Shown one piece after another: positions 2,945-11,043 of a stretch of 64,000 nt of DNA. How positions within the stretch are numbered: position 1 is the stretch's first letter; every line of letters begins with the position of its first letter. This DNA is from Ignavibacteriota bacterium (GTDB taxonomy: Bacteria > Bacteroidota > Ignavibacteria > Tepidaquicellales > Tepidaquicellaceae), in the NCBI GenBank assembly GCA_016218085.1, contig JACREY010000022.1, positions 62,001-126,000 of the forward strand, written 5' to 3'. The position numbers and the translations under genes were made by a program. The notes under the pieces are model-generated. The model saw only the letters and a list, made by a program, of their open reading frames with translations. It made no database searches and was not told the origin of the DNA.

Positions 2945-4132
2945 ATGGATGATTCCGTTATAAAAGAAACAAAAGCCCTCTTCGAATACATCCGTTCGTT
3001 CGACCTGAACAGCATTCCTGATTTGAATACAATGCTGTCTGATTATAATTTTTCTTATATCCCGATTGAAGATCTGCTCTGTAAAATCTCTTTTGGAAAA
3101 AACATCCTGATTCTCGATGCCCGCTCTGAAAATGAATACCTGGAAACACATCTTCCGGAAGCGGTTAACTTTCCCGTTTTGAATGATAAAGAAAGGCATA
3201 ATACAGGACTGATATATTCAAAGTATTCTCCGCTTGCCGCCGTGAAACTCGCAGCCGAATATGCCGACCCTAAAATGCCTGGACTGAAAAAAAAACTGGC
3301 AGAACTTAAAGCCGGACTTAAGGAAATTTTTGTCTACTGCTGGCGCGGAGGCGGCAGAAGCAAATACCTCGCTAAAATGATTTTTGACTGCGGATTTAAA
3401 CCCGTAATACTGACGGGCGGAATTAAATCCTATCGTAAAAAAGTAATGGAGTTTTTCGCTAAAGATTTCGATTATAACCTGATTGAGCTAAACGGTCTGA
3501 CCGGAACAGGAAAAACAGAAATTCTGCGTGAAGTTTCTTCAAAAATCCCTGTACTTGACCTTGAAAAATCCGCTCGGCACTTTTCTTCCCTGTTCGGATT
3601 TATACCTTATAAAATCCGCGGTTACGAGACCGTTAAAAACCAGTCTGCTTTCGAAAATGATATCTTCGCTCAGATTGTCCTGCAAATGCCAATGTTGAAA
3701 GAGTATAATTTTTTTCTCGTCGAAAGCGAAAGTAAAAAAGTCGGAGACTTCTTTATCCCCCAAAATATATACTTAAAAATGCTTGAAGCTAAAAGCATTA
3801 ACATATATAGAAATATAGAAGTTAGAATTGAACATATAATAAATGACTACTTTGGTACAGAAAATCAGGGACTCGTTGAAATGGAAAAAATTTTCACCGA
3901 AAAAGAAAGATTATTCAGAAAGGAATTAAGCAATAAATCATATGAAACCCTCCTGAATTTTCTCCAAAATGGAGATAAATACCGCTTTACAAAAGGTATG
4001 ATTGAGGAATATTATGATAAGAAATACAGGGATAAAGGTAAAACTCCCCTGACTTCAATCTGCTCCGATGATGTCCGCAAAGCCGGCAAGGAATTGATAT
4101 CCTTCCTCAGCTATATCAATAAACAGGATTAA
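2945..4132 (+). CDS. selU: tRNA 2-selenouridine synthase
   Basis: Also called mnmH or ybbB. The family replaces sulfur with selenium in 2-thiouridine at the wobble position of certain tRNAs, through an S-geranyl intermediate, using selenophosphate. The 395-residue protein has the expected order. First comes a rhodanese domain, about 35-160, with the catalytic-Cys loop YCWRGGGRSKY. Then comes a P-loop domain beginning near residue 185 with Walker A GLTGTGKTEIL, and an all-helical C-terminus. It lies 3 bases after selD, a classic pairing. Its last 17 bases overlap the 3' end of the convergent peptidase gene. No selA or selB is visible in the window. Confidence 0.95.
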   Translation: MDDSVIKETKALFEYIRSFDLNSIPDLNTMLSDYNFSYIPIEDLLCKISFGKNILILDARSENEYLETHLPEAVNFPVLNDKERHNTGLIYSKYSPLAAVKLAAEYADPKMPGLKKKLAELKAGLKEIFVYCWRGGGRSKYLAKMIFDCGFKPVILTGGIKSYRKKVMEFFAKDFDYNLIELNGLTGTGKTEILREVSSKIPVLDLEKSARHFSSLFGFIPYKIRGYETVKNQSAFENDIFAQIVLQMPMLKEYNFFLVESESKKVGDFFIPQNIYLKMLEAKSINIYRNIEVRIEHIINDYFGTENQGLVEMEKIFTEKERLFRKELSNKSYETLLNFLQNGDKYRFTKGMIEEYYDKKYRDKGKTPLTSICSDDVRKAGKELISFLSYINKQD

Positions 4133-6212
4133 TTCCCATATTATAAAACATAAATGACCACTTGTCCGCCTGCTCATTTATGATTTTCTTTATGGACCTT
4201 CCAAATCCGTGTCCTGCATCGGTTTCTATCCTGATAATGACAGGATTATCACCTTTATATAACTCCTGAAGCCTTGCAATGTATTTGAATGAATGCGCAG
4301 GAACTACCCTGTCATCATGGTCTGATGTGAATACAAGCGTTGCAGGATATTTAATATCCGGCTTTAAATTATGATATGGAGAATATTTTATCAGGTTATT
4401 AAATCCGACAGAATCATCGCTCGAACCGTATTCTGTTACCCAGCTCCAGCCGATTGTAAATTTATGAAATCTAAGCATATCCATAACACCTACTGCGGGC
4501 AATGCAACCCTGAATAATTCAGGTCTCTGGTTGATAACCGCACCAATCAGCAAACCTCCATTTGACCCGCCTTCTATTGCAAGCTTTGCTGAAGAAGTAT
4601 AATTGTTTCCTATTAAATACTCTGCCGCCGCCATAAAATCATCGAAAACGTTCTGCTTTTTCAGAAGCATTCCTGCCTGGTGCCACTCTTCTCCGTATTC
4701 CCCGCCGCCGCGAAGATTTGCTATTGCAAGTACTCCCCCGTTTTCAAGCAGGATTATTCTCGATGGACTGAATACGGGACTCATAGTCGCATTGAATCCG
4801 CCGTATGCATAGAGCAGTGCCGGATTATTCCCGTTCATCTCTATTCCCTTTTTATGAACAATGAACATCGGAATCATTGTTCCGTCTTTGCTCCGGTAAA
4901 ATACCTGCTTGGTTTCGAAATCAGATGAATTGAATTTCACTTCAGTTGTCTTGAACAGTACCGATTTCTCGCTGTCCATATCGAATTTGTATATCTCATA
5001 CGGATATGTAAAAGAAGTGAAAGTATAAAATACTTCAGGGTCGTCCTTGTCGCTTACACTTATTCCTGTAGCCCCGAGCGAAGGTAGTTTAATTTCGCTT
5101 CTCTGCTTTCCGTCAAACCCATAAATGAATAGCCTGTCCGTAACATCTACCCTGTATTCTACAATAAATTTTCCCCGGCACATTATCACACTTGAAAGCA
5201 CATCCTTTGTTTCGGGAATCACTTCTTCAAATTCGATGCTTCCTTTATTCAAATTGAATTTCACGAGCTTGTTTTTCGGTGCATTTAAGTTTGTCATTAA
5301 AAACATTTCATCTGCTGTATTGTTTATAGGCCACATATCAAAATCAAAGTCATCCTTAATCAGTCTGAAATCCGTCTCTCCCACTTTTTTAAAATATAGC
5401 TGGTTGCCGTTCGAGCCTACTTTAGATATACTCTTGAATAAATATTTCTCATCTTCCGAAGGATAAATCGAGACCCACTGGTTCAGATTGTCTTCATAAA
5501 TCAGCTTATCTTCACTCTGGCTCGTGCCTGCCTTGTGGAAATATATTTTTGGATTTTCATTCTTGGAAGAAAGCACTTTCCCCTCTTCGGGTTTTTCGTA
5601 TTTATTATAAAAGAATCCGTCTCCGAGCCACGATGCGCCTGAAAACTTCACCCATTCCAGATGGTCTGCCAGCTTTGTCTTTGACTTCACGTCCATAACA
5701 AAAATTTCATTCCAGTCCGAACCTGCTCTCGAAATGCCGTAAGCGCAGAATTTATTATCTTTGGAAAAAGTCAGAAACTGAAGCGAAACCGTTCCGTCTT
5801 TCGAAAATTCGTTCGGGTCAATGAATACTTCAGGTTCCGAAGTCAAATCCTTCTGCCTGTATATCACGCTCTGGTTCTGCAATCCGTCGTTTTTATAGAA
5901 ATAATAAAACTCACCCTGCTTGAATGGAGTCGAGTATTTCGGATAGTTAATAATTTCAGTCAGTCTGTTTCTTATTTTTTCCAGATATGGAATTTTATCA
6001 AGATACTCCCTCGTAACCTTGTTTTGCTCACTTATAAAATCCTTTAAATCCGGATTCGCCTGGTCTTCCATCCACTGGTAATCATCCTTCACTTCCACAC
6101 CGAAATAATTATCCGAATGCCTGATTTTCTTTGTCTCGGGATATTTTATCTGCCCAATCCCCGCTTCGCAAATTAACATAAATATTATAAATAAAAATAT
6201 TGTGTTTTTCAT
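4116..6212 (-). CDS. Secreted prolyl oligopeptidase (S9A family)
   Basis: Serine peptidase that cleaves after proline in short peptides; 698 residues, the usual size for S9A enzymes. A signal peptide (MKNTIFLFIIFMLICEAG...) predicts export to the periplasm or beyond. An N-terminal cap (KKIRHSDNYFGVEVKDDYQWMED) is followed by the seven-bladed propeller and then the alpha/beta hydrolase domain. The catalytic triad is visible: Ser about 550 in GGSNGGLL, Asp about 634 in DDRVVPAHS, and His about 668 in DAGHGFGRS. The gene is convergent with selU (17-base overlap) and stands alone. Its upstream region leads into the REP-like repeats. Confidence 0.95.
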   Translation of the reverse strand: MKNTIFLFIIFMLICEAGIGQIKYPETKKIRHSDNYFGVEVKDDYQWMEDQANPDLKDFISEQNKVTREYLDKIPYLEKIRNRLTEIINYPKYSTPFKQGEFYYFYKNDGLQNQSVIYRQKDLTSEPEVFIDPNEFSKDGTVSLQFLTFSKDNKFCAYGISRAGSDWNEIFVMDVKSKTKLADHLEWVKFSGASWLGDGFFYNKYEKPEEGKVLSSKNENPKIYFHKAGTSQSEDKLIYEDNLNQWVSIYPSEDEKYLFKSISKVGSNGNQLYFKKVGETDFRLIKDDFDFDMWPINNTADEMFLMTNLNAPKNKLVKFNLNKGSIEFEEVIPETKDVLSSVIMCRGKFIVEYRVDVTDRLFIYGFDGKQRSEIKLPSLGATGISVSDKDDPEVFYTFTSFTYPYEIYKFDMDSEKSVLFKTTEVKFNSSDFETKQVFYRSKDGTMIPMFIVHKKGIEMNGNNPALLYAYGGFNATMSPVFSPSRIILLENGGVLAIANLRGGGEYGEEWHQAGMLLKKQNVFDDFMAAAEYLIGNNYTSSAKLAIEGGSNGGLLIGAVINQRPELFRVALPAVGVMDMLRFHKFTIGWSWVTEYGSSDDSVGFNNLIKYSPYHNLKPDIKYPATLVFTSDHDDRVVPAHSFKYIARLQELYKGDNPVIIRIETDAGHGFGRSIKKIINEQADKWSFMFYNMGINPVY

Positions 6213-6509
6213 AATCGTGATTTTAATATTCCCTAAAATGAGAAATATTTAAATAAAATTAAACGGAAAAAAAGAATATTCAGTTTTCAAAATGTGGATA
6301 TTAACAGGCAACCCCTACGGGGTTGAAACTCTTTAAGATATTCGATTCTATTAACAGGCAATCCCTACGGGATTGGATTTCGTATCAGGCAAACTGATTA
6401 TTAACGGGCATTCCCGAGGCAATTGTATTAATTTAATAAAATTTTTAAAACATTTAATTTCTTTAATAATATTTGATTAAATATTTTAAATAATAATATT
6501 ATTTGCTCT

Positions 6510-6633
6510 AAACCCCGTAGGGGTTTCCTGTTAATAGCTTTAGATTTTAAAAGCTCTAAACCCCGTAGGGGTTTCCTGTTAATAGCTTTAGATTTTAAAA
6601 GTTTTAAACCCCGTAGGGGTTTCCTGTTAATAG
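6510..6633 (-). repeat. Three tandem 48-bp units carrying REP hairpins
   Basis: The 28-base element AAACCCCGTAGGGG followed by TTTCCTGTTAATAG starts at 6510, 6558 and 6606, exactly 48 bases apart. The intervening CTTTAGATTTTAAAAG is also repeated between copies 1-2 and 2-3, so this is a true tandem duplication of a REP plus spacer. The constant spacer excludes a CRISPR reading. Confidence 0.9.
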
Positions 6634-6654
6634 AATCCTTACATAAAAAGATTC

Positions 6655-6702
6655 AAACCCTGTAGGTCTCGGACTCGCCGTGGCGAGGGTATCCTGTTAA
6701 TA
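6655..6702 (-). repeat. Composite REP-like copy with a nested hairpin
   Basis: This copy begins like the others (AAACCCTGTAGG) and ends with the usual ATCCTGTTAATA, but about 20 extra bases lie in the middle. They include a second perfect palindrome, CTCGCCGTGGCGAG, at 6674-6687. It is either an insertion of one small repeat into another or a diverged variant. It is the copy closest to the transposase start. Confidence 0.75.
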
Positions 6703-6760
6703 ATTTTTTGCTTTTCATTTCATTTATATATTGCTATTTTAAATAAACATATTAACGATT

Positions 6761-7216
6761 ATGGCTAATACATTTACACAACTATATGTCCATATTGTAT
6801 TTTCTGTTAAAGGACGTAAAAATGCTCTACAAACTGAGAACAAGGAATCACTCCACAAATATATAACTGCAATCGTACAAAAACGAAACGTCAAAATGAT
6901 GGCTATCAACTCAATGCCTGACCATATTCATATTTTTCTCGGATTATGCCCTGATATTTCTGTCTCGGATATCGTCCGTGATATCAAACATTCATCTACA
7001 AATTTTATTAATAATAAAAGATGGGCAAATGGGATATTTTATTGGCAGGAAGGATATGGGGCTTTTACATATTCGCAAAGCCAGATAAATAATGTAGTTA
7101 AATATATCATAAATCAGGAAATACATCATCATAAAAAAACTTTTAGGGAAGAATATATCGAATTATTAAAATTATTCAATATTCAATATGATGAAAAATA
7201 TCTTTTTGATATTTGA
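6761..7216 (+). CDS. REP-associated tyrosine transposase (RAYT, IS200/IS605-like Y1 HUH)
   Basis: Single-strand-specific transposase of 151 residues, the normal size for TnpA_REP/IS200-type proteins. The HUH motif is His55-Ile-His57 in MPDHIHIFLG, and the nucleophilic tyrosine is Tyr104 in AFTYSQSQINNVVKYI. No tnpB/IscB-type accessory gene is present. The gene is flanked on both sides by palindromic repeats, in inverted orientation relative to each other (minus-strand copies upstream, plus-strand copies at 7235-7251 and 7274-7301 downstream). This is the arrangement of RAYTs, which are usually single-copy, domesticated and linked to dispersal of REP elements rather than to their own transposition. 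The frame is intact, so it may be active. Confidence 0.92.
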   Translation: MANTFTQLYVHIVFSVKGRKNALQTENKESLHKYITAIVQKRNVKMMAINSMPDHIHIFLGLCPDISVSDIVRDIKHSSTNFINNKRWANGIFYWQEGYGAFTYSQSQINNVVKYIINQEIHHHKKTFREEYIELLKLFNIQYDEKYLFDI

Positions 7217-7234
7217 TATAAATACTCTAAAGGG

Positions 7235-7301
7235 TAACCCCTACGGGGTTATAATATTTCGCTAACATTTTTTCTATTAACAGGCAATCCCTACGGGATT
7301 G
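7235..7301 (+). repeat. Two REP-like copies downstream of the transposase
   Basis: TAACCCCTACGGGGTTA at 7235-7251 lacks the TTAACAGG leader. The copy at 7274-7301 is complete (CTATTAACAGG, then CAATCCCTACGGGATTG) and matches the 6348-6375 copy base for base over 28 positions. Both read on the plus strand, opposite to the array just upstream of the gene. Confidence 0.9.
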
Positions 7302-7422: not shown

Positions 7423-10400
7423 TCACTCAAACGCCCCCGACAAAATCTTCTTCTGTGTTTCGTTCCATACCTTATACGAGCCCGGCGCGGGTGACGCACT
7501 GCTCTTGCGGGATATAAATTCTATCTTCTTTCCGGGTATATTTTTTTCCGTCAGCCGCAGCTGCATAAAAGCCATCGCGCCCATATTTGCAGGCTCTTCC
7601 TGAACCCATTTAAGAGTGGTCGCGTTTTTATATCCCATCAACGCCGTGACTAATTCTTCCTTCGGATGTGGATAGTACTGCTCGATTCTGATAATAGCTG
7701 TATCTTCTATTTTATTATCAGTACGGTATTTATTTAATTCATAATAAATCTTTCCGCTTGTCAGAATAATTTTTTTCACTTTGTCTTTTTTCGCTGTATC
7801 ATCATCGAGCACTGTTTTAAAACTTCCGCTTTTAAATTCCTGCTTCGGAGATTTTACATCGGGATGCCTTAAAAGACTTTTAGGTGTCATAATCACAAGT
7901 GGTCTGCGGTCCTTGCTTTTTGCCTGACGTCTTAACAAATGAAAATATTGCGCAGGTGTTGTTGGATTTGCTACGAAAATATTTCCGTCCGAGCACAATG
8001 TTAAAAATCTCTCGAGCCGCGCGCTTGAATGCTCCGAGCCCTGCCCTTCCTGTCCGTGCGGCAGAAGCATCACAAGATTATTCGGCAGTTTCCATTTTGA
8101 ATATGAACTTACAATAAAATTATCTATGATTACCTGCGCCGCATTAGCAAAATCACCGAACTGCGCTTCCCAAAGTACAAGCGTTACAGGGTCTGCCGTG
8201 CTGTAACCGAATTCAAATCCGAGTACTGCCGCTTCCGATAATAAACTATCGAGCGGTTCGATTATTGCCTGATTATCAGAAATGAAATTAAGAGGAATAT
8301 ATTCCTGACCGTTATTCATATCGGTTACGACTACGTGTCTCTGAGAAAATGTCCCGCGCGCGCTGTCCTGTCCGCTAAGCCTTACAGGATTTCCTTCGAG
8401 CAGAAGACTGCCGAATGCAAGAGATTCTGCAAAAGACCAGTCAACCTTTACATCTTTTGAAGAAAATTCTTTTCTTGTTTCAAAGAATTTTGATAATTTC
8501 GGATGAAGTTTGAATCCCTGCGGCAGAGTAGAAATTTTATCGGCTATATCATTCAGCTTCTCCGTAGATATACCCGTAGGTTCATCGGTTTTATATGATG
8601 AAATCATTTCATCTGTAACAGCAAGTGGAATATCACCGCCGAAATCTTTTGTTCCGTTGTGCGCCTTCGAGTAATCTATATCCATTGCACTGTGAACTTT
8701 CTTTTCCATCTCTTCCGCTTCAGCATCGGTTATTACTCTTTCTTTTTTCAATTCTTCTTTATAAAGATTCATTACAGAAGGATGTTCTTTAATCAGTTTG
8801 TACATTATCGGCTGTGTGAATCCGGGCTCGTCCGTTTCATTATGTCCGAGCCTTCTGTAAGAAAGAATATCCACAACAACATCTTTCTTGAATTTCATCC
8901 GGTATTCATAAGCAAGCTTTGTAACCCAGAGAGCTGACTCGGGATAATCTCCGTTCACGTGGAATATCGGTGCCTGTACCATCTTTGCAACATCGGAAGC
9001 ATAAACGGAAGAACGTGAATCTTCAGGAGGAGTGGTGAATCCAATCTGATTATTTATGATTAAATGAATAGTGCCGCCTGTGCTATAGCCCGAAAGCTGT
9101 GACAGGTTTAGCGTTTCGGCTACCACACCTTCTCCTGCAAAAGCCGCATCACCGTGAATCAGAACCGGAATAATTTTGTTTTTTTCCGTATCACCCATAT
9201 TTTTCTGCTTGGCACGGACTATGCCTTCCACAACAGGATTTACAAATTCAAGATGCGAGGGATTTGATGCTACCGATACTTTTATTCTGTCAGCATAAAA
9301 GGTTGTATATGTGCCGGATGCTCCGAGATGATATTTTACATCCCCGGAACCCTGCACTGAATTTGAATCAACTATATCCTCAAACTCCGAGAAAATCGAA
9401 TACAGCGGCTTGCCTATTATGTTTGCAAGTACGTTTAGCCTGCCCCTGTGCGCCATGCCGAGCATAATTTCTTCAACCTTATCATTCGCAGCTTCATTAA
9501 GAAGAAAATCGATTACGGGTATAATCGTTTCCGAGCCTTCGAGTGAAAATCTTTTATGACCGAGATATTTTTTATCGATGTATTTTTCAAATGATTCTGC
9601 CTGTATCAGCTTGTATAAAATATTTCTCTTAATATGTGAATTGTACGCAGGTGTATTTCGGATTGATTCCATATTATTTTGCAGCCATAGCTTTTCTTCG
9701 GGGTCCTGTATGTGGCGGTATTCAACCCCGATATTTTCACAATATGTCTGATGAAGCATATCGAGTATATCGCGAAGCTTTGCTGTCCTGTATCCGCCAA
9801 GTCCGTCCGTTATAAATTCCCTGTCGTAATCCCATACCGTGAATCCGTAATAGCTCGGATCAAGCTCTTTGTGATATTGCGCCTTCGGATTTAGCGGGTC
9901 GAGATTAGAAAGAAGATGTCCACGCACTCGGTACATATTAATCATCTGAATTGCCTTTGCCTGCTTTTCTATTTCGCTCAGGTTTTTTATTCCGCCGAAG
10001 TCATCAGGGTTGTTGTCTGCTTTCCATTGAACAGGTTTTGTCGGAACCTGTAAATCACTAAAAAGATTATCATAAAAATTATCTTCGCCTGTTAAAAGTT
10101 CATTCAGTTTTTTCAGAAAAAGTCCGGACTCAGCACCCTGAATAATCCTATGGTCATATGTGCTTGTTACATTCATAATCTTGCTGATACCAAGTTTGGA
10201 AATTGTATCTTTTGTTGCACCCTGAAATCCTGCCGGAAAGTCAATACTTCCGGTAGCTATTATTGCTCCCTGCCCTACCATCAATCTCGGATTCGAAGAT
10301 ACCGTGCCAATTGTTCCCGGATTTGTCAGAGAAATCGTTGTATCCTGAAAATCCGAAACTTCGATTTTATTCACACGAGAACGTTTTATAATATCATTAT

Positions 10401-11043
10401 ATGCATCATAGAATTGCCTGAAGTTCATTGAATTTGCGTTCTTGATGTTTGGAACTATCAGCGAACGGCTTCCGTCTTTCTTTATCAAATCAATTGCCAG
10501 CCCGATGTTCACTTCTTTTCTTCTGATTACCTGCGGCTCGCTGTTGATTAATCCGAATGCGTAATTCATAACAGGCACAGTTTCAAGCCCCTTCACAATC
10601 GCCCATCCGACAATGTGAGTAAAAGAAACTTTCCCCTGTCCGATTTTTGCAAAATAATTATTCAGTATTCTTCTGTTTTCCTCTAAAACTTTTACCGGAA
10701 TTGCCCTGAGTGATGTAGCCACAGGTATGGATAGACTGCTGTCCATATTCTCGATTATCTTCATTCCCGCACCGCGTATCGGAACTGCTTTCTCAATATC
10801 TTTTTCTGCTACTGTGCTTTTCGGCTCTGCTTTAGAAAGTATTCTCTCTTCTCCGTTTACTTTTTTTTCTTTCTTGCTGTATGCAGATTTTATTTCTAAT
10901 GATTCAAAAAAATTCTTCCAATACTCGCTCACCAACTCGGGTGATTTTTCGTATTCATTAAGAAGCTCGAGCACATACCAGGTGTTTACACCAAATTCCG
11001 ATATTTTTTCTTTCTGAGTTTTTGTTAAATCTTCTATATTCAT
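7423..11043 (-). CDS. kgd: Multifunctional 2-oxoglutarate dehydrogenase E1/E2 fusion (KGD-type)
   Basis: TCA-cycle enzyme of 1206 residues. Residues 1-50 resemble the E1o N-terminal segment, followed by a linker of about 45 residues. About 100-325 form an E2 succinyltransferase catalytic domain with the active-site signature STYDHRIIQGAESG near 295-307. From about 360 onward is the thiamine-diphosphate E1 dehydrogenase: MYRVRGHLLSNLDPL, GMAHRGRLNVLANI, SNPSHLEFVNPVVEG, HGDAAFAGEGVVAETLN and INNQIGFTT. The layout and size match actinobacterial KGD/SucA rather than the roughly 930-residue stand-alone SucA. No lipoyl domain is visible, so a lipoylated E2 from elsewhere would be needed for full dehydrogenase activity. 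It is monocistronic here and divergent from the P-loop gene. Confidence 0.92.
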   Translation of the reverse strand: MNIEDLTKTQKEKISEFGVNTWYVLELLNEYEKSPELVSEYWKNFFESLEIKSAYSKKEKKVNGEERILSKAEPKSTVAEKDIEKAVPIRGAGMKIIENMDSSLSIPVATSLRAIPVKVLEENRRILNNYFAKIGQGKVSFTHIVGWAIVKGLETVPVMNYAFGLINSEPQVIRRKEVNIGLAIDLIKKDGSRSLIVPNIKNANSMNFRQFYDAYNDIIKRSRVNKIEVSDFQDTTISLTNPGTIGTVSSNPRLMVGQGAIIATGSIDFPAGFQGATKDTISKLGISKIMNVTSTYDHRIIQGAESGLFLKKLNELLTGEDNFYDNLFSDLQVPTKPVQWKADNNPDDFGGIKNLSEIEKQAKAIQMINMYRVRGHLLSNLDPLNPKAQYHKELDPSYYGFTVWDYDREFITDGLGGYRTAKLRDILDMLHQTYCENIGVEYRHIQDPEEKLWLQNNMESIRNTPAYNSHIKRNILYKLIQAESFEKYIDKKYLGHKRFSLEGSETIIPVIDFLLNEAANDKVEEIMLGMAHRGRLNVLANIIGKPLYSIFSEFEDIVDSNSVQGSGDVKYHLGASGTYTTFYADRIKVSVASNPSHLEFVNPVVEGIVRAKQKNMGDTEKNKIIPVLIHGDAAFAGEGVVAETLNLSQLSGYSTGGTIHLIINNQIGFTTPPEDSRSSVYASDVAKMVQAPIFHVNGDYPESALWVTKLAYEYRMKFKKDVVVDILSYRRLGHNETDEPGFTQPIMYKLIKEHPSVMNLYKEELKKERVITDAEAEEMEKKVHSAMDIDYSKAHNGTKDFGGDIPLAVTDEMISSYKTDEPTGISTEKLNDIADKISTLPQGFKLHPKLSKFFETRKEFSSKDVKVDWSFAESLAFGSLLLEGNPVRLSGQDSARGTFSQRHVVVTDMNNGQEYIPLNFISDNQAIIEPLDSLLSEAAVLGFEFGYSTADPVTLVLWEAQFGDFANAAQVIIDNFIVSSYSKWKLPNNLVMLLPHGQEGQGSEHSSARLERFLTLCSDGNIFVANPTTPAQYFHLLRRQAKSKDRRPLVIMTPKSLLRHPDVKSPKQEFKSGSFKTVLDDDTAKKDKVKKIILTSGKIYYELNKYRTDNKIEDTAIIRIEQYYPHPKEELVTALMGYKNATTLKWVQEEPANMGAMAFMQLRLTEKNIPGKKIEFISRKSSASPAPGSYKVWNETQKKILSGAFE

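Follow-up and report, generated by a model that had tools for sequence, protein, structure and literature searches.

What kind of transposase stands in a gap between two genes of an Ignavibacteriota bacterium, surrounded by short palindromes, and what do these palindromes have to do with it? The window, i.e., the whole stretch of DNA that was analyzed, is 64,000 nucleotides long, and the original prediction saw in one part of it a RAYT (REP-associated transposase) within nine REP-like elements. Two questions are raised by such a locus. Are the palindromes a dispersed family of repeats? And is the protein really a RAYT?

The features of the locus, together with three related genes from elsewhere in the genome, are collected in Table 1. 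All nine hairpin elements predicted around the gene, tnpA, can be read at 6299-7301, and the frame of the transposase is intact, with DHIH as the HUH motif, WQEG, and YIINQEIHH, in which Y115 is the predicted catalytic tyrosine. The exact tag TATTAACAGG is found in seven of the elements; these are its only exact occurrences in the window, every one within 6299-7284, and a copy with one mismatch lies at 6399. When one mismatch is allowed, the window holds 12 matches, compared with a mean of 5.38 and a maximum of 11 in 100 shuffles. The inversion of upstream and downstream copies that had been described is true of the four nearest upstream elements (-) and the two downstream ones (+), but the three farthest upstream are also +. 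A nested palindrome, CTCGCCACGGCGAG, breaks up some of the REPs, so that one repeat lies within another; this is the case at 6654-6702 of the window and at L008, L010, and L030.

Table 1. Genes and hairpin elements of the locus (window positions), and the tnpA paralogues of the same genome (contig positions)
Feature	Position	Strand	Remarks
Prolyl oligopeptidase gene	4116-6212	-	tnpA neighbor
REP	6299..6325	+	tag TATTAACAGG, 7-bp stem, 3-nt loop
REP	6349..6375	+	stem variant AATCCC/GGGATT; 50 nt from preceding REP
Degenerate REP	6399..6425	+	TATTAACGGG, imperfect stem
REP	6510..6536	-	first of three with 48-nt pitch
REP	6558..6584	-	second of three with 48-nt pitch
REP	6606..6632	-	third of three with 48-nt pitch; top model match genome-wide
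REP	6654..6702	-	nested palindrome breaks stem; inner upstream partner by tnpA; weak model match, E 0.457
tnpA, Y1/HUH transposase	6761..7216	+	151 aa (stop included); Y1_Tnp 8.4e-27
Hairpin without outer tag	7233..7251	+	inner downstream hairpin; AAAGGG head; model E 0.008
REP	7275..7301	+	outer downstream partner of tagless hairpin
2-Oxoglutarate dehydrogenase fusion gene	7423-11043	-	tnpA neighbor; oxoglutarate dehydrogenase E1 + E2 acyltransferase domain, 1206 aa, PRK12270 1659 bits
tnpA paralogue	C21:395425		53% identical to window TnpA
tnpA paralogue, broken (one stop)	C12:194668		61% identical over open part
tnpA paralogue (L037)	C12:119702-120046		34% identical to window TnpA

Is it the structure of the hairpins that is kept, rather than their sequence? 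Folded as single-stranded DNA, the tagged strand of four copies, two of them identical, adopts a common hairpin with a 7-bp stem and a 3-nt loop at -5.6 to -6.6 kcal/mol; the two complements that were folded adopt this hairpin too (-5.1 and -5.6 kcal/mol). Covariation was measured on 14 copies with 3-nt loops, 10 of them distinct, taken from the window and the rest of the genome. Standard pairing occurs in 70 of 70 pair cells, a perfection that leans on selection because the copies were hand-picked for a recognizable 7-bp/3-nt hairpin. Five of the seven stem pairs change on both sides, a result matched by 6 of 500 shuffles, and the covariation score is 0.590 versus a shuffled mean of 0.212, with 0 of 500 shuffles reaching the observed value. 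Six further pair types were counted, not above the shuffles (359/500), so that four of the five measures beat nearly all shuffles. The stem changes are paired and the structure is kept, just as the original prediction had it.

The next question is whether the elements are confined to this locus. In the genome of the window (3.31 Mb, 22 contigs), there are 47 exact copies of TATTAACAGG and 10 of the reversed pattern, and 22 of the 47 lie directly 5' of a perfect hairpin of at least 6 bp, one of which (L031) looks unrelated. A search with a covariance model had been proposed, with the expectation of many dispersed intergenic copies, and these were found; the refuting outcome, a purely local array, did not occur. 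Built from 14 copies and applied to 150 of 2534 genome candidates, so that all its counts are lower bounds, the model gives at least 70 matches at E ≤ 1 and at least 43 at E ≤ 0.01, the latter in at least 17 clusters on 10 contigs. Thirty-seven of the 43, i.e., those in fetched stretches or in the window, were examined and all are extragenic (none has half or more of its length in an ORF of at least 100 aa), while such ORFs occupy 71% of the fetched stretches outside the window. At least four of the 17 clusters bear the tag of a second family, CTACAAACAGG (C8:219604, C12:195245, C14:41929, and C21:381-382 kb).

A symmetric unit, R2(-) R1(-) - 7-10 nt - R1(+) R2(+), is readable at C2, C3, C8, C15, and the C20/C8 junction, and in the window tnpA fills the center of such a unit. 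The end of C20 and the start of C8 (L032 and L019) have 61 identical bases in common, inside a REP unit; this is probably one site at which the assembly is broken, and two clusters may thus be one. Units of the TATTAACAGG family adjoin hairpins of another family, TAGCCC, at C2:182.8-183.2 kb, C3:13.8-14.1 kb, C8:80.1-80.3 kb, and C15:185.9-186.2 kb, as if one family inserts beside the other, or as if the two were co-amplified. A mixed array at C8:9875-10158 (L020) holds both CTACAAACAGG and TATTAACAGG elements, with neighbors ~49-50 nt apart. Neither an empty site nor a fresh insertion was encountered.

A single transposase gene had been expected along with these copies, and here the genome turned out to be richer. 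It has six Y1_Tnp matches, five above the Pfam cut-off: four are one kind of tnpA, one of them broken, and two are remote, one of these below the cut-off. None of the four is nearly identical to another copy, the three paralogues being 34-61% identical to the window protein where aligned. Their flanks carry different hairpin families, namely TATTAACAGG, TATAATARTG, CTACAAACAGG, and TAGCCCACGG..CCGTGGG. Besides that of the window, two families are dispersed: CTACAAACAGG occurs 15 times versus 0 for the reversed pattern, with four copies adjoining the broken tnpA (L039), and TAGCCC also 15 times versus 0, with three adjoining the tnpA of the family. The TATAATARTG pattern of the third tnpA (L038) occurs 2 times genome-wide, both beside the gene, and is a local array only. 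The 15 sites of the TAGCCC family (TAGCCCAYGRYTTYARYCRTGG), which is that of the divergent tnpA L037, have a TTAG/GTAG-like foot, and a similar hairpin stands beside a tnpA (L166) of G009, a genome of the same genus. Within the protein subclass, L037 may represent a GTAG-like branch.

Do related genes elsewhere have hairpins of this kind? One genome per species was scanned, which gave 383 relatives, and the best 80 were taken; their record titles place most of them in Bacteroidetes and allied groups, and the rest include some Poribacteria and Marinimicrobia and one SAR324. A frame of at least 140 aa is present in 79 of the 80, and both Y...Q..HH and DHxH in 76 of these 79. A motif could not be read at 10 of 29 loci, and these were left out of later counts. 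Hairpins of at least 6 bp, counted without reference to any tag, amount to 3.99/kb within 250 bp of tnpA versus 0.46/kb at 2-4 kb, and 61 of 80 loci have at least one within 250 bp. Is this simply a property of non-coding DNA? In matched non-coding flanks, the density is 5.06/kb beside tnpA versus 1.22/kb elsewhere, and a hairpin occurs in 34/70 flanks at tnpA versus 52/291 at other genes (Fisher 5e-7).

The hairpins beside these genes are also enriched for a particular head. A first tag pattern, present at 24 of 80 loci, was widened to [CT]TA[CT].[ACG]A[CT]A, which lies 8-12 nt 5' of the hairpin in 65/500 near versus 4/516 far hairpin orientations; in reversed flanks, the number is 4/500 near orientations. 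GTRG no farther than 2 nt from the stem shows no such enrichment, with 4 near versus 10 far hairpin orientations. Fixing the geometry (11-nt head, 7-bp stem, 3-4 nt loop) leaves 100 elements near tnpA, spread over 40 of 102 loci, and 20 far from it. In these later counts, a tagged element must have a [CT]TA anchor and a perfect 7-bp stem, and the same hairpin may enter the count once per strand; the pairing in the alignment of the general model is, for this reason, there by construction. Of the 40 tagged REPs that are nearest on their side, 30 point toward the gene (p=0.002); when every tagged element within 600 bp is taken, 48 do so and 33 point the other way. Tagged REPs stand on both sides at 6 of 34 loci, 3 of which have them inverted towards the gene. 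Taken by tag or by the hairpin pair described below, REPs are present at 38 of 80 loci, and neither is found at the other 42. No hairpin lies within 500 bp of a subclass-1.2-like gene on a Bernardetia plasmid (L219).

Another regularity concerns spacing, again computed without the tag. In 110 of 263 adjacent pairs near tnpA (99 loci, the window genome left out), the hairpins are 47-55 nt apart, and these pairs come from 36 of the 68 loci with any adjacent pairs. Each of the other separate 9-nt bins between 20 and 120 nt holds at most 14 pairs, and the far hairpins give 12 of 161. Such a 50-nt pair occurs near tnpA at 30 of 80 loci versus 2 of 77 points 2.5 kb away, the control area per locus being smaller (~2000 versus ~2450 bases). 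In the window genome, the pairs have a near-constant start-to-start distance of 48-50 nt. The spacer 5' of the second tag is AT-rich and ends in TTC in 14 and in TTTC in 11 of the 19 rows used (the twentieth, L035, was dropped for a misplaced anchor), and 3' of the second hairpin no column exceeds 56% of one base (18 copies). Both this pitch of ~50 nt and the non-GTAG, 11-nt head had been missed by the original prediction.

Is the protein, then, a RAYT? Reportedly, Bertels and colleagues classified the RAYT groups in 2017. The NCBI model for RAYTs, NF047646, gives 40.8 bits, under its cut-off of 80, and the NCBIfam model for IS200/IS605 gives 79.3 bits, over its cut-off of 55; among aligned relatives at E ≤ 1e-3, 81 of 81 match the IS200/IS605 model and 80 of 81 the RAYT model, as counts in which cut-offs are not compared. 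The closest solved structures by sequence are those of ISDra2 TnpA and its kin, followed by IS608 TnpA, and ISDra2/IS608 TnpA also head the fold list for the AlphaFold model (pLDDT 92.3). In this list, the E. coli RAYT 4er8 is 29th by E-value (4e-6), and the fold alone is not discriminating because its TM-score on the query (0.62) is no lower than that of ISDra2 at the top (0.57). As for class 2 RAYTs, their Y1_Tnp domain (PF01797) is present and their Y---NP is absent; the protein has Y---Q--HH. This motif, together with DHIH, WQ, and the length, fits subclass 1.2, and so do the short protein, the low copy number, and the divergent paralogues within the genome. By its signature, the protein would be a TnpA-Y1 of subclass 1.2, close to IS200/IS605 and not a classical RAYT. 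The RAYT label has been given up on these grounds; what stands of the proposed RAYT/BIME kind is a Y1 transposase whose REP-like elements lie outside genes, are dispersed, and conserve their structure, the nearest of them facing the gene from either side; strictly speaking, it is no RAYT.

Given this kinship, could the locus be an ordinary IS200/IS605 element, whose two ends, left and right, are the hairpins and whose gutted, non-autonomous derivatives are the dispersed copies? The model scores and the heads of the sequence and fold lists agree with such a reading; moreover, the same-orientation hairpin pairs, with conservation that stops at the foot of the second hairpin, approximate minimal IS ends, and the R2-R1-(7-10 nt)-R1-R2 units look like the window locus minus its central tnpA. 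Yet the several near-identical copies per genome that mark IS200/IS605 (subclass 1.1) are missing here, and so are same-orientation hairpins bounding tnpA: in IS608, subterminal hairpins on the same strand bound the gene, whereas those nearest to tnpA in the window are inverted. Nor is there a tnpB among the three neighboring genes checked (prolyl oligopeptidase, the oxoglutarate dehydrogenase fusion, and MnmH). A comparison is offered by 16 plasmid IS200-type loci, hand-chosen for variety from 39 other listed rows (73 records matched); two of these controls have no readable motif (L229 and L235), one has Y...Q..HH (L222), and in two the gene ends were assumed, the records being unannotated (L230 and L235). 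Hairpins are enriched at these 16 loci as well (2.00/kb near versus 0.68/kb far), as IS ends would make them, but the 50-nt pair occurs at 1 of 16, against the 30 of 80 given above (p=0.017). An ordinary insertion sequence is, all in all, an unlikely explanation.

How far do hairpins and gene travel together? This was approached in a phylum set of 198 genomes, with a tnpA relative defined at E ≤ 1e-30 and REPs taken at E ≤ 1e-3 from a general model. Tagged REPs occur in 22 of 62 genomes with the transposase versus 8 of 136 without (p=3e-7). Minus the window genome, the numbers are 21 of 61 versus 8 of 136 (p=7e-7), and with at least three matches required they become 12 of 61 versus 4 of 136 (p=2e-4). 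At most 36 candidates were scored per genome, which makes these counts lower bounds; furthermore, the model was built from 40 REPs beside tnpA, so that the presence of REPs near tnpA is partly circular, and the 198 may include other genomes used for training. Within the window's own family (29 genomes; close tnpA at E ≤ 1e-39; at most 150 candidates scored per genome, hence again lower bounds), the association is not significant, with 7/13 versus 7/16 (p=0.43). Eight of the 30 REP-bearing genomes of the phylum have no close tnpA (G022, G059, G072, G084, G108, G115, G146, and G232), and in the family this is the case for G013, G019, and G022. These could be orphan REPs, a gene may have been missed, or a distant transposase may be used.

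Do tags and proteins match each other? Across 34 loci, tag distance correlates with protein distance (r=0.40, a value reached in 0 of 2000 permutations; among pairs less than 70% identical, r=0.34), a correlation that shared descent alone could produce. Five other genomes were compared for dispersed tags. In G149, 13 of 15 strict-geometry copies away from tnpA (13 fetched stretches) have the exact tag of the tnpA flank, tagged REPs being present at 1 of its 4 tnpA genes, and in G174, 1 of 2 dispersed tags match. The remaining three show a mismatch: 0 of 3 in G060, where the tnpA flanks have no tagged REP; 0 of 5 in G011, 2 of them within one mismatch; and 0 of 5 in G159, where one of two tnpA genes was compared. 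Exact searches of ten genomes gave no dispersal for CTACCGACAT, with 7 occurrences in its own genome versus 1-9 in each of the other nine; for CTACAAATATG, the corresponding numbers are 14 and 0-7.

Such mismatches, like the REP-bearing genomes lacking a close tnpA, leave room for a different view: the hairpins might not be TnpA substrates but mRNA stabilizers or terminators spread by slippage and recombination, with tnpA merely sitting in a repeat-rich gap. Two nearly identical loci from two Bacteroidales genomes (L115 and L116) differ only in the length of a downstream REP array with a ~135-bp unit, a difference that slippage can explain, and one REP of the window is terminator-like. This view nevertheless meets the enrichment of hairpins at tnpA over the non-coding flanks of other genes, the orientation of the nearest elements toward the gene, the correlation of tag and protein (with the reservation on descent made above), and two tnpA genes in one genome that have different flanking tags. 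The terminator-like REP is the single such site in the locus, versus 0.4 expected, and terminators were rejected as a general reading; an RNA family was rejected too, since the sole Rfam match is far under its gathering score (22.2 versus 115). Hairpins foreign to the transposase are improbable. A CRISPR-like array with a ~28-nt repeat and ~22-nt spacers, for which the regular 48-50 nt period might speak, was rejected as scarcely conceivable in view of dispersed singles and pairs in both orientations, paired stem changes, an enclosed gene that is a transposase, and no cas gene among the same three neighbors.

The anatomy, the dispersal, the covariation, the association with tnpA, and the pitch are observed facts, and they are probably those of a REP-mobilizing system that is based on a subclass 1.2 TnpA and has its own REP type; its mobility, with the binding and cutting by TnpA, the position of cleavage, and the movement of REPs, we infer. 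How might such a system work? The cognate element, of which copies often follow one another at a pitch of ~50 nt, would be a single-stranded DNA hairpin with a 7-bp stem, a 3-4 nt loop, and, 5' of it, the 11-nt head CTAYNNACAKN (CTATTAACAGG in the present case). Where a strand is exposed, e.g., as the lagging-strand template, a TnpA dimer could bind two neighboring hairpins, and the 50-nt pitch would be the reflection of this arrangement. The head would be the recognition and guide sequence read by TnpA; the tyrosine would cut near the TTTC|TA boundary, and the hairpin unit would be joined elsewhere. In this way, units would build up between genes, while tnpA would remain a low-copy, diverging resident gene, i.e., an IS200/IS605-like Y1 transposase without the behavior of an insertion sequence.

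A broader idea can be put forward only tentatively, and we would not bet on it: subclass 1.2 might be a second REP-mobilizing lineage from the IS200 branch, separate from the class 2 RAYTs, with a substrate made of two hairpins ~50 nt apart that are paired via the 11-nt head. If so, the REP lifestyle would have two origins among IS200-type transposases, and a ~70-nt hairpin pair, working like a geneless miniature IS200, would be the smallest unit that moves. The practical consequences are closer at hand. In its published description, subclass 1.2 lacked both the behavior of an insertion sequence and REPs, which left it without a known substrate; oligonucleotides for cleavage assays can now be designed from tag, hairpin, and 50-nt pitch, and the presence in one genome of several transposase/REP pairs that differ in their heads makes a clean specificity-swap test possible. 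The results also suggest that searches tuned to GTAG miss the REP type beside these genes in many Bacteroidetes-type genomes.

How does all of this compare with what is known? With IS200/IS605 (ISDra2 and IS608), the system has the HUH/Y1 fold in common, and it departs from them in its lack of a multi-copy IS, its inverted flanking hairpins, and its 50-nt arrays. For IS200/IS605, cleavage sites are described as being chosen via a guide 5' of the palindrome (PMC8266576). Non-GTAG palindromes are described elsewhere: the CGTC repeats (PMC3733652) are reported there without a flanked transposase and have other tags, and the atypical REPs of subclasses 2.6 and 3 are likewise non-GTAG palindromic repeats, some in Bacteroidetes, although the 2.6 proteins are given as having Y---NP and the tags differ (PMC6006769). 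Flavobacterium genomes are named in a table of the RepRanger article (PMC12306157), whose main text does not contain the words “transposase” and “RAYT”. Searches of an open-access library yielded no report of subclass 1.2 REPs, of the present head, or of the pitch, subscription papers and preprints being outside the scope of the search.

The closest description of the protein is that of subclass 1.2 (PMC6006769), with DH[IV]H, WQ, Y---Q--HH, ~150 aa, low copy number, divergent paralogues, and Cyanobacteria/Bacteroidetes as host groups, of which the Bacteroidetes are shared. Table 1 of that work (Quentin et al. 2018) has “REP: no” for this subclass. Contrary to this entry, many members do have REPs beside them, and in the genome of the window the REPs are dispersed. 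As described there, the automatic search for REPs accepted a hairpin only with GTAG or GTGG 0-2 nt away from its stem, a feature missing in the present elements, and some subclasses were inspected manually.

The functional parallel is with RAYT/TnpAREP and the GTAG REP/BIME, the REPtrons (PMC2817692, PMC8266576). As described for these, a low-copy Y1 transposase is flanked by nearest REPs in inverted orientation, cognate palindromes with compensatory stems are dispersed outside genes, and several transposases, each with its own REP family, live in one genome. The E. coli TnpAREP is described as cutting single-stranded REP at CT, 5' or 3' of the hairpin (PMC8266576). The copy number differs, being in the tens rather than the hundreds, with more than 100 REPs per genome given as usual (PMC2817692). 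The protein has Y---Q--HH where RAYTs have Y---NP, the head is CTAYNNACAKN (11 nt) instead of GT(A/G)G, and, unlike RAYT REPs, the hairpins follow one another at a ~50-nt pitch, often in one orientation.
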